Shown here: positions 11,500-43,361 of the stretch, in pieces
Layout of the letters: every line of letters begins with the position of its first letter
How positions within the stretch are numbered: position 1 is the first letter of the stretch
Source: Candidatus Rubrimentiphilum sp.
Lineage (GTDB): Bacteria > Vulcanimicrobiota > Vulcanimicrobiia > Vulcanimicrobiales > Vulcanimicrobiaceae
DNA length: 64,000 nt
Assembly: GCA_035710515.1 (NCBI GenBank)
Contig: DASTDE010000001.1
Location: 744,001 to 808,000, forward strand
Direction: 5' to 3'
The notes under the pieces: model-generated
Told to the model about the DNA's origin: nothing
What the model saw: the letters and a program-made list of their open reading frames with translations, nothing else
Databases searched by the model: none
Program-made: the position numbers and the translations under genes

Positions 11500-11548
11500 G
11501 CAGCCCTCGACTACGCTCGGGCATGGTTCGACAGGCTCACCATGACAC
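11500..11548. repeat. Dispersed intergenic repeat, copy 3
   Basis: CCCTCGACTACGCTCGGGCA followed by TGGTTCGACAGGCTCACCAT and GACAC matches the repeat words elsewhere in the arginine cluster. It reaches the argB start region on one side and supplies an in-frame ATG (11542) for argF on the other. Confidence 0.8.
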
Positions 11549-17960: not shown

Positions 17961-18008
17961 GCGGGCCTCGACAGGCTCGGCCGTGGTTCGACAGGCTCAC
18001 CATGACAC
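17961..18008. repeat. Dispersed intergenic repeat, copy 5, carrying the argD start codon
   Basis: GCGGGCCTCGACAGGCTCGG and CCGTGGTTCGACAGGCTCAC are followed by CATGACAC. The ATG at 18002 within the last word is the argD start. No Shine-Dalgarno is seen. Confidence 0.85.
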
Positions 18009-35350: not shown

Positions 35351-35382
35351 TTGACAAATATCGATACAGGTTCTAGTATCGA
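35351..35382 (+). promoter_or_regulatory. arsR promoter with ArsR operator; probable leaderless start
   Basis: TTGACA (35351-35356), a 17-base spacer and TAGTAT (35374-35379) form a strong promoter. An inverted repeat TCGATAC (35361-35367) / GTATCGA (35376-35382), eight bases apart, covers the spacer and the -10 element. The predicted transcription start is 35386, the A of the arsR ATG. This is the expected layout for autorepression by ArsR. Confidence 0.88.
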
Positions 35383-35385
35383 ACC

Positions 35386-35730
35386 ATGTCTCTACGGCGT
35401 TGCTGCCCGCCAAAACGCGTCGCGCGCGCAAACTACGGCGACGAAGCTGCGCTCTTCGCCGCGCTCTCGGACGAGCATCGCCTAGCGATAATCGCCTCGC
35501 TCGCGCAAACCGAGGGCGAGATTTGCGTCTGCGATTTCACCGATTGTCTGCCGCTCAATCAGCCGACGGTCTCCCACCACCTGCGCATCCTACGCGAAAG
35601 CGGACTCGTGACGGGCGTGCGGCGCGGAACTTGGGTGTACTACCGGTTGGCGGCAGATGCAAAACGGCGTTTGCAGCACGTTCTGCGCGCCATCTTCGAG
35701 GGAAAGGTCTCCTATGAACGAGCTTCATGA
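35386..35730 (+). CDS. arsR: ArsR-family arsenite-responsive repressor
   Basis: The 114-residue winged-helix dimer has the arsenic-binding motif around residues 45-50 (EICVCD, as in ELCVCDL) with a third Cys at 54, and the recognition helix QPTVSHHLRILRESGLV. Cys6 and Cys7 at the N-terminus add further thiols. Arsenite binding to the Cys triad is expected to release it from the operator just upstream. Its last 17 bases overlap the start of the Cys-rich miniprotein gene. Confidence 0.94.
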   Translation: MSLRRCCPPKRVARANYGDEAALFAALSDEHRLAIIASLAQTEGEICVCDFTDCLPLNQPTVSHHLRILRESGLVTGVRRGTWVYYRLAADAKRRLQHVLRAIFEGKVSYERAS

Positions 35731-35803
35731 AAAGCAGTGCTGTTGTGACTGCGAGTGTTGCGATTGTTGCGACTGCTGCGCTAGCGCGTGCTGCAAGCCG
35801 TAA
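35714..35803 (+). CDS. 29-residue Cys-rich miniprotein in the ars operon
   Basis: This short frame reads from ATG 35714 to TAA 35801-35803. Twelve of 29 residues are Cys, in the run CCCDCECCDCCDCC, then a later CC. The start is preceded by a GGGAAAGG ribosome-binding site and overlaps arsR by 17 bases; the end overlaps the aquaporin GTG by 16 bases, so it fills the only gap in a fully coupled operon. The size and thiol density suggest a metallothionein-like As(III) or other soft-metal chelator or donor. Known metallothioneins are longer; I recognise no family. It is too short for routine gene calling. Confidence 0.75.
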   Translation: MNELHEKQCCCDCECCDCCDCCASACCKP

Positions 35804-36462
35804 CCTCGGCTAACCCGCTGGCCAAACGCGCCGTCGCGGAAGCGCTGGGCACTGCGCTCTTGCTCGCCGCGGTTGTCGGCTCGGGAATAATGGCCGAGCG
35901 GCTCTCCGGTGGAAACGTTGCCATCGCCCTGCTTGCGAACACACTGGCAACGGGTGGCGTCTTGCTCGCGATCATTCTGACATTTGGCGCGATCTCCGGG
36001 GCGCATTTCAATCCGGCTGTAACTCTGGCGGACGCCTTGCATGGCGGCTTCCGGTGGCGCGAGGTTCCGGTGTACATAACGGCGCAGATCGCCGGCGCGA
36101 TCGCCGGAGTTGCGATCGCGAACGTGATGTTTGCGCAGCCGGTGTTCTTCGCGTCGCACCACGCGCGCCACGGGTTTCCCGTGCTTCTGAGCGAGTTTGT
36201 CGCAACGTTTGGTTTGCTGGCGGTTATCTGGGGCTGCGTGCGGGCCGGGAACAATGCCACGCCCTACGCGGTTTCCGCCTACATCGTGGGCGCCTATTGG
36301 TTCACTGCCTCAACATCGTTCGCGAATCCGGCCGTCACGATCGCGCGCTCGCTATCGGATACGTTTGCCGGCATCGCTCCCGGCGATATCGGCGGCTTCG
36401 TCATCGCTGAACTGGTGGGTGCGCTCGCCGCCACCGCGCTCTTTGCGTGGCTGGCTCGCTGA
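35788..36462 (+). CDS. aqpS: Aquaglyceroporin, MIP family (AqpS-like)
   Basis: The 224-residue membrane channel has two NPA boxes, GAHFNPAVTL (Asn75) and FANPAVTIA (Asn180), with six expected helices and two half-helices. In Sinorhizobium meliloti AqpS replaces ArsB and lets arsenite made by ArsC leave the cell. The position between arsR and arsC with no arsB or acr3 matches that design. The start is GTG 35788, with no separate ribosome-binding site, which implies coupling to the miniprotein. Confidence 0.92.
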   Translation: MLQAVTSANPLAKRAVAEALGTALLLAAVVGSGIMAERLSGGNVAIALLANTLATGGVLLAIILTFGAISGAHFNPAVTLADALHGGFRWREVPVYITAQIAGAIAGVAIANVMFAQPVFFASHHARHGFPVLLSEFVATFGLLAVIWGCVRAGNNATPYAVSAYIVGAYWFTASTSFANPAVTIARSLSDTFAGIAPGDIGGFVIAELVGALAATALFAWLAR

Positions 36463-36839
36463 TGCCCCTCGTGCTCTTCGTTTGCCGCCACAATACGGGC
36501 CGCAGCCAGATGGCCGAAGCGTATCTGCGCCGGTTCGCAGGCGAATCGGTTGAAGTGGCCTCGGCCGGAACGGTGGCCGCCGACAAACCCGAACCGATCG
36601 TGGTTCAAGCGATGAGCGAGGACGGAATCGACATTTCGAGCGCCCGTCCAAAACTACTGGATCCGCAAACAGTCGAACGCGCGGACGTCATCATCACGAT
36701 GGGCTGCGACGTCCAAGGCGTGCCCCGCATCGACGAAGACTGGGGCTTGCCCGATCCAAAAGGCCAGCCGCTCGAGCGTGTCCGCGAGATTCGCGACCTG
36801 ACGAAAGCGAAAGCAAGCGAGTTAGCGAAGCGGCTCTAA
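36462..36839 (+). CDS. arsC: Low-molecular-weight phosphatase-type arsenate reductase
   Basis: I start at ATG 36462 (TGATG overlap with the channel gene), giving 125 residues. The catalytic loop is C8-RHNTG-R14 (a CX5R loop), and the Asp of PDPKG serves as general acid. Cys82 is present in ITMGC, but the third Cys of thioredoxin-type enzymes near residue 89 is missing (DVQGVPRI there). Thus regeneration may use a different thiol, for example mycothiol, bacillithiol or the Cys-rich miniprotein. ArsC reduces arsenate to arsenite. Confidence 0.92.
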   Translation: MPLVLFVCRHNTGRSQMAEAYLRRFAGESVEVASAGTVAADKPEPIVVQAMSEDGIDISSARPKLLDPQTVERADVIITMGCDVQGVPRIDEDWGLPDPKGQPLERVREIRDLTKAKASELAKRL

Positions 36840-38246
36840 GTGCCGCTACTCCCTCTGGCGCGCCGCAAGGTGCACGCGCCGGTCGCCGTGAGCGACCGCC
36901 GAGTTCGCATTGCCAAGTTCGGAATGTACCTGGCCGGCTTCATGGCGGTCGTGAACATCAGCGTGATCTATCTGGCGCTGCCGTCGATCGAGCGCGCGCT
37001 GCATGCCGACATCGCCGATCAGCAGTGGATCCTGAGTATCTATCCTTTAATGGAAGGCGGCTTTACGCTGGCGGCCGGAACGCTCGGCGATCTCTACGGA
37101 CGAAAACGCATAATGGCGGCGATGACGTGGCTGTTCTTGCTCGCCACTATCGCTTGCGCGCTGGCACCTAACACGCCGCTGCTCATCGTGGCGCGCGGTT
37201 TTCAGGGTTTAGGCGGCGCAGCGCTGCTGTCGCTTCCCGTTGCGATCCTCGTGCAGATGCTTCCCGATCCGGCCGACTGCGAGGACGCGATCAAGAATTT
37301 CGCCATGGTAGCCGGCTTGGGCGCCGTGGCCGGACCCGCCATCGGCGGCGTGCTCGTGCACTGGTTCGGCTGGCCGTCCATTTTTTATCTGTCGGTCATC
37401 ATGACGGTCGTTGTGCTGGCTACGCTGCCGGCGACCGAAGAGAGCAAGCGCGATCCGGCGTTGCGCATCGACGGCATCGGCCAGGCGTTGAGCATCCTCT
37501 CGCTCCTGGCGATCTGCTTCGCACTGATCGAGGGCAACGAGCGCGGCTGGCTCTCTCCCGTGATCGTGGGCGCGTTCATTCTTTCCGTCGTGACCCTGGC
37601 GGTGTTCTTGTACGTCGAAGGGCGCGTCGCACAACCGATGATTCACCTGCGCTACTTTGCGGTGCGTGCTTTTAACGTTGCGCTGCTAGTGATCGGCGGC
37701 ATCAATTTTGCGTGGTACGGCGTCATGCTGCTGTGCACGCTGTTCCTGCAAGACGTGCTGCACCAATCCGCGATGCTGGCCGGGTTCTATCTGATGCCGA
37801 GCAACATTGCGTTCTTTTTGGCAAACCAATATAGCAGTGCGGTGCAGAAGCGGCTCGGCGCGCGTGGCATCATCACGGTGAGTTTTATCATCAGCTTGGC
37901 CGGCATGGGTTGGCTCGCTCTGCTCGGAGCCGCCTCGGCAGCGTGGGAAGTTTCGGCCGGCCTGTTCATCGCGGGCATCGGATGGGGATTTGCGTTCACG
38001 CCTGCGGCATCGATGGGAATGGCGGCGGTGACCTCGGCCGATGAGGGATTCGCATCGGGCGCGGAAGCACTCAGCCGTTCGCTCTTCGGCGTTTTCGGAA
38101 TCGCCGTCTTAGGGTCGGTCCTGTCCGCCGGAATCAGCGGCGGCAGTTTTGTCTACGGACTGCACGCTTCGCTCATTGTCTGCATGGGGCTAACGCTGGT
38201 GGTCGGCGTCTTGGTCTACGGTATGCTGCGCAACCGGACGGCTTAG
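36840..38246 (+). CDS. DHA2-type MFS transporter in the ars operon
   Basis: The 468-residue carrier has 14 expected helices, with GDLYGRKRIM and RGFQGLGGAALLSLPVAI as MFS/DHA2 motifs. The GTG start follows the arsC stop directly without a gap. Its location suggests efflux of an arsenic or antimony compound or of an organoarsenical, but DHA2 carriers usually export drugs, so this is inference from context only. It converges with the next gene and overlaps it by four bases. Confidence 0.9.
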   Translation: MPLLPLARRKVHAPVAVSDRRVRIAKFGMYLAGFMAVVNISVIYLALPSIERALHADIADQQWILSIYPLMEGGFTLAAGTLGDLYGRKRIMAAMTWLFLLATIACALAPNTPLLIVARGFQGLGGAALLSLPVAILVQMLPDPADCEDAIKNFAMVAGLGAVAGPAIGGVLVHWFGWPSIFYLSVIMTVVVLATLPATEESKRDPALRIDGIGQALSILSLLAICFALIEGNERGWLSPVIVGAFILSVVTLAVFLYVEGRVAQPMIHLRYFAVRAFNVALLVIGGINFAWYGVMLLCTLFLQDVLHQSAMLAGFYLMPSNIAFFLANQYSSAVQKRLGARGIITVSFIISLAGMGWLALLGAASAAWEVSAGLFIAGIGWGFAFTPAASMGMAAVTSADEGFASGAEALSRSLFGVFGIAVLGSVLSAGISGGSFVYGLHASLIVCMGLTLVVGVLVYGMLRNRTA

Positions 38247-39925: not shown

Positions 39926-40072
39926 ATGGCCGACAAACCCAAAGATAATTCAGGCGTCTTCGGAAACGACGAACTTGACGAAGAGGTAACGAGCGCCGAC
40001 GATACCGGGATCGTCAAACAACAACAGGAAATCGCCGAAGAAGAGATCCTTTCACACCTGAAAGACGATTAG
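39926..40072 (+). CDS. Acidic miniprotein (48 residues)
   Basis: The ATG at 39926 follows AGAGAGG with a five-base gap. The 48-residue product is strongly acidic (GNDELDEEVTSADDTG, and EEEILSHLKDD at the end), with a helical second half. No signal peptide. It may be a partner or anti-factor of the MEDS-receiver pair, an inference from order only. Its stop overlaps the convergent protease gene. Confidence 0.65.
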   Translation: MADKPKDNSGVFGNDELDEEVTSADDTGIVKQQQEIAEEEILSHLKDD

Positions 40073-41688
40073 CTGCCCCAGCGCGTGCGGTAGCGATCGT
40101 TCGGCACGAGATAGATCTTCGCGTGGCGATAATCGAAATACAGATCGAAATTGCGCAGCACGTCCTGGCCGATTAAGCCATCGTAGTCTTCTTGATTGAA
40201 CGAGTTGGCTGTTTGGGTTGCGAAAAAAAGCCAGCGCGGAAAGCTGATCGTCGATAGGCCAAGGCCGTTGACTTCGACCGGACGGATCTCGATCTCGCCG
40301 CCGACGCCGCCGCTCGATTCGACGAATGGAAACGAATCCTCGATGGCTTCGCCCATCCCCTGATCGGCGGTATCCGCCGGGTGTGCCGCTACAAACTCCG
40401 AGAAAAGCAAACTGCGATCGGCACCGGTGTCCAGAATAAATTTCTGAGCCGAAGTTGCGCCGATGCGAGCCGCGATTACCGGCACCTGGTCGTCCAACCG
40501 GATCGGCAGTACTAAGGCGCCGGCGGGCGGCGTGAATGCACTGGGATCGATGGCTTCGACGGTTCCGTTTAGATAGTCGACGTGTATGACTGTCGAGGCG
40601 ATGAGGTCGTAACCCATTAAACCCGCGATGGGGGTGCCGTCGGACGCATACCAGTGGAACGGCGCCGCTTCGATCGCGACGTTTTGCATCGTGAGGTTTC
40701 CGATCGTGATCTGCGGCACGATCGCCCGCGAGGCTAAATACGCTCCGGCGGTGACTTCCGTTAACTTGCCGTAGAGCGGAATCTTCAAGGCTTCGGCAAC
40801 CGAACGATCGAGCAGCAGCCCCGACGCGCCCGAGTCCAGCTGGAAGTCTACTTTGCGCCCGCCGATCTGCGTCTTCACGATGATGCGGTCGCTCAAAATA
40901 GATACCGGTAATGAAACGCGCGACCCGCCCAGCGTCACTGGGTTGCGTGCGTCCGGCGGAATGACAAGTTTGGAAGCGTCGATCGCCACGCCGTGCTGCA
41001 GAGTCTGAAGTTGTGAATCTTCGTCGTTACCCGGCTGCCCGTCGCTGACGTGGACGTGCCAAGCCTCGGTCACTCCGTCGGTGGTGCGAAAGTCATCATA
41101 GGTCGTCACAATGCGGCCTTGCTCGACCGCGCGCTCGGTGCGGATGATCAAGTACTTGGCCTTGTCGTAATAAATGAATTCCACGCGGCCGTCGGGCGGC
41201 GAGACTTTCACGACATAGGCCGGCGACGGGTCGGAGATCGCGCCGAGCAACTGCACGCCGCTGTTTTTTTGCAGGGCGTGGCTAAGGCCCAGTGCCTTGC
41301 GATTCGCGTCATCACGTCCGTGAACGCCCGTTACGAGATGCGTCAAGCCGTTGGCGTTCTGCGCCCACTCTTGTCCGTGATATTGGCCGTCAGCTTCATG
41401 GAACGGGCCCAGTGTTATGTCGTCACGATAATCGTCACCCGAGACCAGCGAGGTGGTTGTGCCGGTCAGGTCGCCTTCCTTATATGTCCATGCCGCGCTG
41501 CGCGTCTTCGGCATACCCGGCGGGAGCTTGCCCACGGCGGTGGCGTGCAGTTTCAAGAGCGCGCTCAACGTCATCGTCGTGGGCGTGATTCCAAAAGGCT
41601 CGATCGCGCCGGTCTGCGCCGGCAACGATGACGGAAGAAGCGCGAGCGCGCCCGTCAGGATAAGCGTGCGCAGCATGGCCGTGCTCAC
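40069..41688 (-). CDS. Exported double retropepsin-like aspartyl protease
   Basis: The 539-residue protein has a signal peptide (LILTGALALLPSSLPA), an N-terminal domain of about 240 residues shared with its neighbour, and two tandem retropepsin lobes. Both active-site motifs are intact: FQLDSGASG (Asp285) and FILDTGADRS (Asp420), each followed by a hydrophobic-hydrophobic-Gly-like strand (IAGLMGYD, DGLIGQDVL). Two lobes in one chain could form a pseudo-dimer as in pepsin. The start overlaps the stop of the paralogue (ATGA). Confidence 0.86.
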   Translation of the reverse strand: MSTAMLRTLILTGALALLPSSLPAQTGAIEPFGITPTTMTLSALLKLHATAVGKLPPGMPKTRSAAWTYKEGDLTGTTTSLVSGDDYRDDITLGPFHEADGQYHGQEWAQNANGLTHLVTGVHGRDDANRKALGLSHALQKNSGVQLLGAISDPSPAYVVKVSPPDGRVEFIYYDKAKYLIIRTERAVEQGRIVTTYDDFRTTDGVTEAWHVHVSDGQPGNDEDSQLQTLQHGVAIDASKLVIPPDARNPVTLGGSRVSLPVSILSDRIIVKTQIGGRKVDFQLDSGASGLLLDRSVAEALKIPLYGKLTEVTAGAYLASRAIVPQITIGNLTMQNVAIEAAPFHWYASDGTPIAGLMGYDLIASTVIHVDYLNGTVEAIDPSAFTPPAGALVLPIRLDDQVPVIAARIGATSAQKFILDTGADRSLLFSEFVAAHPADTADQGMGEAIEDSFPFVESSGGVGGEIEIRPVEVNGLGLSTISFPRWLFFATQTANSFNQEDYDGLIGQDVLRNFDLYFDYRHAKIYLVPNDRYRTRWGS

Positions 41689-43361
41689 ATGTGGAATGCG
41701 TTGAAGAACGACTTGTTCGGCTTCAGCAGAACGCGGTTGTGCGGATAGTCCACGTACATGTCGTAGTACTTGAGGAAATCCGCCCCAAGCGCTGCGTCCA
41801 CCTGATGGCCCCCATAGTCTTCGTCGGCATCGGTACCGAGCATGTAGTAGCTGATGAAGTGCGCCTGCCCGAACTGTAAGTCAGGGATCGTACTCAGCCA
41901 AACCTCGGCCTCTCTCCCGTAGCCGCCCGAGTCAGCAAACGGAACGACTGCCGACGAGTGATTCCGGCCGTTCGTATCCTTTACCGATTCCGGATAGCGC
42001 GAAGTGAAATGACCAAAGACAAACGAGATTTCGAAATTGTTCGCAAACAAGATCGCCGAGCTAAAGTGAAAGTTCAGCAATCCTTCCAAGAACGCGTACC
42101 CGTCATCGAAATGCAGCGGGATGGAAAAGGCGCCCTCCACCGGCTGGCCGCTGTCGAACGCACTGGCCGGATCGAGGGTGATCTTGCCGTTGTCGTAGTC
42201 GATTTTGAAGACTCCACTCTTGAGGACATCGTATCCCAGCGTTCCGACAACTTGCGTATCCCCGCCGATGTGGTAGTTAAATCTCAGCGCGCGCATGGCG
42301 AAGTTGTGCAGCGTTAGGCCGCCAATCTGCATTGAAGGCACGATCGTGTCATAAGGAATCGGCGTCCCGTCAGGCATCCGCAGCGCGTGCCCGTTGGCGG
42401 AAAGGCCCAGTTGCTGCGCGACGTCCCAGTCGATGTACGAACCCGAATCACCCGTAGAAAGCTCGAAGTCGAGACCACGTCCGTTGATGTTGACGCGTAC
42501 GACGGCCGTCGGGGCGACGAACGGCTGGTATTGTCCAAGGCCCGTCTCAAAGTACAGCCTCTCGGATATGACGCGTGCCGGGATCTCCACATGGCCGTTG
42601 TAGGTCGCAAATGCCGGCGTGTCCGACGGCGTGATAAAGTCGCGCACGTCAACGGGCTCGCCTATCGTCAGCGACTGGCGCATGAAATCGTCGTCCAGAT
42701 ACGCGCGGCCGTCGGTGACGTGGATGTGCCACGGCTGCGTCAGGCCTTTGGTCGGCCGGTAGTCGCTGTAGGTCGCCGTATACCGGGTCGTGTAGATCGC
42801 ATTGACGATCTCGTCGATCAAGCCGGTATTCTTGTCGTAAAAAACCCATTCGGGATGTTTGTAGTTCGGGCGAGTGATCTGCACGACGTACGCCGGATGC
42901 GGGTCCGCCACTTCGCCGATCACCTTGACGTCGTTCTTCGTATCCTCCGTGTCGCCGAAGTTACGCATGAAGATGAGCATCTCAAAGCTCGTGGGATCGG
43001 GGGCTTCCATCGGCGAGACGTACCCGTTCGGATCTTTGTGCCAGCGATGGCCCAGAAACTGGCCGTATTCGTCCACGACGGGTCCGGCTACGATTTTTGA
43101 GCGAAAGTCAAAGCCTTTGCGCGTGAGCGTTTCCGTGCCGGCCAAACCGGCATTCGAGAAATGCCACACCTCGCGGTGCGTATCGTCCACGCCCGCCTTA
43201 AGCTGGCCGACTGCGGCATCGTAGTGCTTGAGGATCTGCGAGACCGTGGCGGTCGTCGGCGTGATGCCATCCGGCGGCGCGTCGAGCTTGTCGTCTTTGG
43301 CCAGCGCCACGGTCGCCGTAATGAGTGCGAGGATCGGAAGAATGAACAGAGTGCGCTTCAT
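41685..43361 (-). CDS. Exported retropepsin-like pseudoprotease (paralogue of the next gene)
   Basis: The 558-residue protein aligns along its length with the 40069-41688 product: same N-terminal domain (TPTTATVSQILKHYDAAVG) and same strands. The catalytic motifs are gone: FELSTGDSG at residues 300-307 replaces FQLDSGASG, so Asp becomes Ser302, and SSAILFANNFEISF replaces the second DTG. It therefore cannot cleave by the usual mechanism and may bind substrate or regulate its partner. It is the first gene of the pair and is coupled by ATGA. Confidence 0.85.
   Translation of the reverse strand: MKRTLFILPILALITATVALAKDDKLDAPPDGITPTTATVSQILKHYDAAVGQLKAGVDDTHREVWHFSNAGLAGTETLTRKGFDFRSKIVAGPVVDEYGQFLGHRWHKDPNGYVSPMEAPDPTSFEMLIFMRNFGDTEDTKNDVKVIGEVADPHPAYVVQITRPNYKHPEWVFYDKNTGLIDEIVNAIYTTRYTATYSDYRPTKGLTQPWHIHVTDGRAYLDDDFMRQSLTIGEPVDVRDFITPSDTPAFATYNGHVEIPARVISERLYFETGLGQYQPFVAPTAVVRVNINGRGLDFELSTGDSGSYIDWDVAQQLGLSANGHALRMPDGTPIPYDTIVPSMQIGGLTLHNFAMRALRFNYHIGGDTQVVGTLGYDVLKSGVFKIDYDNGKITLDPASAFDSGQPVEGAFSIPLHFDDGYAFLEGLLNFHFSSAILFANNFEISFVFGHFTSRYPESVKDTNGRNHSSAVVPFADSGGYGREAEVWLSTIPDLQFGQAHFISYYMLGTDADEDYGGHQVDAALGADFLKYYDMYVDYPHNRVLLKPNKSFFNAFHM

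Follow-up and report, generated by a model that had tools for sequence, protein, structure and literature searches.

In Sinorhizobium meliloti, the operon arsR-aqpS-arsC-arsH contains neither ArsB nor Acr3, and its AqpS channel is described as making the cell sensitive to external arsenite and resistant to arsenite made internally (PMC6205960). In a 2015 survey of 685 ars operons, 18 MIPs were counted, all without ArsB or ArsY, and 35 MFS proteins, all with ArsB or ArsY, so that a combination of MIP and MFS was unseen there (PMC4435449). According to another source, no specific sequestration gene had so far been found within an ars operon (PMC12093948). Here, we analysed an ars operon in a 64,000-nucleotide stretch of the soil bacterium Candidatus Rubrimentiphilum sp. 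(GenBank assembly GCA_035710515.1, contig DASTDE010000001.1, positions 744,001 to 808,000; hereafter the window), a genome whose close relatives are Candidatus Eremiobacterota. It consists of arsR, a cysteine-rich mini open reading frame (mini-ORF), aqpS, arsC and an MFS gene, and all five ORFs were recovered on the plus strand in the order that a preliminary description of this DNA had given. Like the S. meliloti operon, it has the order arsR-aqpS-arsC, a similar AqpS and no ArsB or Acr3, but it carries the mini-ORF between arsR and aqpS, has the MFS gene added and lacks arsH. A nearer likeness is found in the arsR-arsI/cadI-aqp-arsC operons of Eremiobacterota, which share the repressor, the operator and the aqp clade, whereas the window has the mini-ORF in place of ArsI and the MFS gene behind arsC. 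We propose from the sequence, with moderate confidence that covers all three parts jointly, that this is an AqpS-type operon for arsenate detoxification under ArsR control, with an ArsI-relict mini-ORF and a passenger MFS carrier. The operon is of a known kind, and its novelty lies in the second gene.

A cysteine-rich mini-ORF between arsR and aqpS

The mini-ORF, which the preliminary description had listed without comment, is more informative than the MFS gene. It encodes MNELHEKQCCCDCECCDCCDCCASACCKP in the window genome (G000), and the same gap between arsR and aqpS encodes MNDLRDTKECCSDSNCDCECCCCG in G069, MNDCDCCCCCCCE in G071 and MVLTDTEERGAGNCCA in G068; three of these peptides begin with ATGAACGA. 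Cysteine makes up 12 of 29 residues in the window, 8 of 24 in G069 and 8 of 13 in G071, with only 2 Cys in G068, and the Cys codons of the mini-ORFs are a mixture of TGC and TGT. The mini-ORF is thus present in four of the five genus members with AqpS, and none was found in the fifth, G073. Its starts overlap the 3′-end of arsR, and its stops overlap or touch the start of aqpS. The Shine-Dalgarno (SD) energies at the mini-ORF starts were -6.7 in G000, -8.4 in G069, -11.7 in G071 and -6.0 in G068, while those at aqpS behind them were, in the same order, 0.4, -2.5, 0.4 or 0.3 (two candidate starts) and -1.7. Energies at random positions had a mean of -2.7 and a 5% point of -6.6, of which the G068 value falls just short. 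In G073, without a mini-ORF, aqpS has an SD of its own (-7.9). The mini-ORF is probably translated, and aqpS coupled to it, because the mini-ORF holds the ribosome-binding site and aqpS is without one.

We then screened about 1.27 Mb on both strands, a sample enriched for ars loci, for ORFs of 10-60 aa with 6 or more Cys that make up at least 33% of the residues. Four distinct places were obtained, namely the window, G069, G071 and a Chloroflexi metagenome-assembled genome (MAG), which encodes MPCDCPCGTCPCPCGC; each belongs to an ars operon and comes straight after arsR or its promoter. The Chloroflexi ORF (locus L155, VBHE01000031.1, 3505-3555) is separate from the genus series; it is the first gene of its ars operon, has an SD of -10.6 and lies one base before an intact arsI/cadI. 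No such mini-ORF was present in 20 Acr3 loci of the family (0/20). Of 149 genomes in the phylum, 39 contained the pattern CDCxCC, a frequency that by eye was close to that of a backwards control, and the 30 places fetched gave no further mini-ORF of this kind. The window peptide matched no NCBIfam model, and with 29 aa it lacks the VOC domain with vicinal Cys site of ArsI/CadI. A Cys-rich mini-ORF ahead of aqp in locus L172 was discarded, because a different coding frame encloses it. For the window, we also rejected the idea that the Cys ORF is an out-of-frame artefact of a longer aqpS, since a stop at 35782-35784 closes the aqpS frame there; in G071 that frame runs open through the Cys repeat, and such an artefact is possible. 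RNA around the four mini-ORFs folded no better than shuffles (z of -0.08, 0.42, -1.30 and 0.91), values near 0 that give no support to an RNA attenuator structure. No recognisable description of a Cys-rich small protein within an ars operon was found among the open-access papers that literature searches listed, and the present arrangement was not recognised there under ArsI tails, Eremiobacterota ars or DHA2 in ars operons.

Possible descent of the mini-ORF from ArsI/CadI

Of the 37 rows in the AqpS tree, 25 have an ArsI/CadI-type VOC gene near aqp and on the same strand, in most cases placed between the arsR and aqp genes, and the one family ArsI protein tested scored over the cut-off of NF041414. 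The ArsI proteins, listed for 65 loci, end in CC..CC tails, with a median of 4 Cys in 30 Eremiobacterota tails. In the AqpS tree, the genus clade (support 100/94) is nested among ArsI-bearing loci, and its nearest neighbours (L036, L038, L041 and L039) carry ArsI. Within the genus, ArsI is present in G070 and was not found in G000, G068, G069, G071, G072 or G073. Moreover, the G068 peptide aligns with the ArsI tail of L066, VVLAETEERDEAATCC, at a score that 15 of 1000 shuffled versions equalled or exceeded. These observations suggest that the mini-ORF may be a remnant of an ArsI tail: the ArsI domain would have been deleted in the genus, leaving a short ORF that kept the former start and stop junctions and ends in the thiol tail, and the Cys content would then have risen in the G000, G069 and G071 lineages, three of the five species.

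Several observations weigh against this reading. Only one of the five peptides compared with ArsI tails, that of G068, stands out, and shuffles as good or better numbered 448 of 1000 for G069, 721 for G000 and 935 for G071, as well as 247 for the Chloroflexi peptide. Descent from ArsI rests on position, the tree and one sequence, because the other three mini-ORFs resemble the tails only in composition. Six family loci outside the genus have the order arsR-aqp-arsC with neither ArsI nor a mini-ORF in the gap, so ArsI loss without a relict also occurs. Further, G073, the AqpS-bearing member without a mini-ORF, is a genome only 56% complete. An independent origin of the mini-ORF in the same gap is possible.

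Possible roles of the Cys peptide

A bolder and rather unlikely reading is that loss of the ArsI domain freed the thiol tail as a translated, Cys-expanding peptide, which may either buffer As(III) or act in the operon as a gate that responds to cysteine supply. The first form, a working mini-metallothionein that would buffer As(III) while AqpS leaks it out, is doubtful. Vicinal cysteines bind trivalent arsenicals, and the high Cys content in the window, G069 and G071 with mixed codons, together with the unrelated mini-ORF with a strong SD that opens the Chloroflexi operon, speaks for such a peptide; against it, length and sequence vary by species, only 2 Cys remain in G068, the ORF is absent in G073 and NCBIfam gave no match. 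A more prosaic explanation sees in the mini-ORF a scrap, decaying or expanded by slippage, that is kept only as a bridge from arsR to aqpS and whose peptide is inert. Slippage can expand TGC repeats, the open aqpS frame in G071 and the loss of the mini-ORF in G073 are in keeping with it, and we regard it as possible, if on the unlikely side. It is opposed by the stop in the window, which rules out an aqpS extension there, by the Cys enrichment in three separate species, and by the lack of anything comparable elsewhere in the sequence screened.

Alternatively, the poly-Cys codons might gate aqpS, so that a shortage of Cys-tRNA or thiol would stall the ribosome before the aqpS start and close arsenite entry. 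Polycysteine short ORFs reportedly act as cysteine-responsive attenuators in mycobacteria (Canestrari, 2020), and those leader ORFs likewise are short, mostly Cys and placed ahead of a gene. The ORF described here differs from them in lying inside an operon, having an SD and showing no special RNA fold; its internal, not leaderless, position and the z values near 0 argue against a gate, which we hold to be improbable. The overlap of the two ORFs, with the SD on the mini-ORF and none on aqpS, would suit such control, as would the sensitisation of S. meliloti to external arsenite by AqpS (PMC6205960).

AqpS as the probable arsenite exit

The channel of the window is 53.7% identical to the annotated S. 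meliloti aqpS product over residues 34-208 and has the two NPA motifs of a MIP channel of the AqpS clade. In line with the earlier statement that the operon lacks ArsB and Acr3, no model match to Acr3, ArsB or ArsJ was obtained anywhere in the window's own genome, which is about 96% complete. We next compared the 99 genomes of the family set, 66 of which had a MIP match at E <= 1e-3. By high identity, an AqpS orthologue was counted in 41 of them (two as fragments), Acr3 exceeded its model cut-off in 22, and none had both. Within the genus, G070 has Acr3 without an AqpS orthologue, G000, G068, G069, G071 and G073 have AqpS without Acr3, and G072 has neither. An ArsC of the window's type was found behind the channel as well as behind the pump in family loci. 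The Fisher test of the exclusion gave p 1.1e-6, with related genomes treated as independent. Short AqpS fragments in G056 and G094 were not counted among the 41, and neither of these two genomes has Acr3.

Taken together, the exclusion and the gene order support the view that arsenite leaves through AqpS and not through Acr3/ArsB. The comparison with Sinorhizobium made in the preliminary description holds for the channel and not for the reductase, whose fold differs: S. meliloti ArsC is annotated as glutaredoxin type, while the window ArsC is LMWPc, with 22% identity in a forced alignment, and we classed the operon as AqpS-type by its channel, not by its reductase. We also observed Aqp and ArsC fused in one frame in four family loci (L036, L038, L045 and L069), resembling the AqpS-ArsC fusion of Salinispora mentioned in PMC6205960, and in L250 a single frame joins Acr3 to ArsC.

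A DHA2-like carrier, most likely a passenger

The MFS protein was placed by family models and solved-structure matches. Its best model of all was TIGR00711 (DHA2 drug exporters), and because the score of 192.9 bits is below the cut-off of 230.2, we name the carrier DHA2-like. The best solved chains were 7y58 (4.9e-32), an entry named 'Antiseptic resistance protein' which we take to be QacA, and EfpA (8ufd, 3.3e-31). Alignment to the DHA2 exporters QacA, EfpA and EmrB, the QacA chain among them, spans almost the full length, although the window protein is shorter (468 aa) and under that cut-off. The 14 helices of the preliminary description are only approximate, with 13 segments counted by simple hydropathy. 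ArsJ was rejected as an identity for the carrier, since NF033734 gave no match in the genome at E <= 10.

Matches at E <= 1e-60 were found at 11 places in 7 of the 99 family genomes, and only two of these adjoin ars genes. Orthologues of about 80% identity occur in G000, G068, G070 and, as two copies, G071, mostly outside ars loci. The chromosomal site of the window operon is flanked by aldo-keto reductase and DUF5666 genes and, at its other end, by a small gene labelled OB; at the matching site, G070 and G071 each have the MFS gene without ars genes, and G069 has the ars cassette without MFS. In G068, the MFS gene lies about 0.5 kb behind arsC at a different chromosomal site, and G071 has a second, cut-off copy about 8.5 kb from its ars cassette. 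Among the 40 fetched family loci with AqpS, the window excluded, only G068 has this MFS behind arsC. The SD at the MFS start is weak in the window (-2.5), and because the starts in relatives are weak as well (-0.1 to -3.4), it is uninformative on recruitment. A dispersed repeat with the core GCTCAGGATGACA flanks MFS copies in relatives, and in G071 the ars cassette too, and is a possible means by which MFS and the ars cassette were shuffled. This repeat was seen at L083, L084, L032 and L035, with two weak copies within the window itself (11527-11547 and 17987-18007), and it seems to extend into coding frames (RQAQGD-like peptides).

The carrier might instead be a working part of the operon that exports a conjugated or organic arsenical, as the preliminary description had suggested. 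The MFS GTG start follows the arsC stop codon immediately, with a zero-base junction, copies lie near ars genes in G068 and G071, and in G059 an acr3-arsC reading frame is followed after 37 nt by another DHA2 carrier of 31% identity, so that carriers of this type entered ars operons of the family on two or more occasions. Further, with ArsI missing from most of the genus, trivalent organoarsenicals would need another outlet. This suggestion was not borne out and we judge it quite unlikely, given that drug-exporter models score best, ArsJ is unmatched, 2 of the 11 places are next to ars genes, the orthologue in G070 and one copy in G071 are without ars, the G069 cassette at the site is without MFS, and 1 of the 40 AqpS loci has MFS behind arsC. 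Most likely, the DHA2-like carrier is a recent-looking passenger with a substrate that is probably not arsenic-specific: a DHA2 exporter that would have come to abut arsC.

Operon layout, promoter and reductase

The features of the operon are listed in Table 1. The five genes stand head to tail, with ends touching or overlapping, behind one ArsR-type promoter.

Table 1. Features of the ars operon in the window
Feature	Position	Strand	Details
Promoter/operator, ArsR-type	35351..35382	+	-35 TTGACA 35351-35356; -10 TAGTAT 35374-35379; inverted repeat TCGATAC 35361-35367 / GTATCGA 35376-35382
arsR, ArsR/SmtB repressor, 114 aa	35386..35730	+	Pfam HTH_5 4.3e-14; NF033788 94 bits, cut-off 55
Cys mini-ORF, 29 codons, 12 Cys	35714..35803	+	Start within arsR 3′-end, stop within aqpS 5′-end; SD -6.7 kcal/mol
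aqpS-type aquaglyceroporin, 224 aa, GTG start	35788..36462	+	MIP 3.9e-25; NPA at 75-77 and 180-182
arsC, arsenate reductase, low-molecular-weight phosphatase fold	36462..36839	+	LMWPc 1.2e-19; Cys8, Cys82
DHA2-like MFS exporter, 468 aa, GTG start	36840..38246	+	MFS_1; TIGR00711 192.9 bits, cut-off 230.2

The promoter has the spacing TTGACA-17-TAGTAT, and the inverted repeat TCGATAC-8-GTATCGA lies within it; this pattern gave one match with 0 mismatches in the 64-kb window, compared with 0.06 expected. The same layout was present in all 37 family loci tested, and because the -10 box always ends 6 nt 5′ of the arsR start, the arsR transcript is probably leaderless, which, judged from these sequences, looks general across the family. 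ArsR carries an N-terminal Cys6-Cys7 and an EICVCDF motif. For ArsC, Cys8 and Cys82 without a third Cys, as described earlier, were found in all 14 own-type rows aligned. The nearest solved chains were 3t38 (7e-24), 3rh0 (6.9e-19) and 2l17 (1.9e-15), presumably the Corynebacterium glutamicum and Synechocystis enzymes; Cys82 aligns with a Cys in 3t38 and 2l17, and 3rh0 has no Cys there. A low-molecular-weight thiol with a redoxin is the likeliest reductant. Elsewhere in the window, two adjacent genes of one cluster (539 and 558 aa; 40069-43361, minus strand) look by eye like retropepsin-type proteases.

Proposed mechanism and meaning

In the model we favour, ArsR would repress the promoter through the inverted repeat and As(III) would release it. 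Ribosomes would enter at the SD of the mini-ORF, and aqpS would be translated by coupling to it. ArsC, by homology, would reduce arsenate, and the arsenite would leave down its gradient through AqpS, as in S. meliloti and in keeping with the exclusion of Acr3. The MFS gene would probably be co-transcribed with the genes upstream.

AqpS and Acr3 appear as interchangeable arsenite exits within one bacterial family. If the Cys peptide did arise as proposed and works in the operon, it would represent an ars component of a new type, born by domain loss. The small natural series of ArsI with a tail, a tail-like ORF, poly-Cys ORFs and none lets the roles of the Cys tail and the mini-ORF be tested directly.

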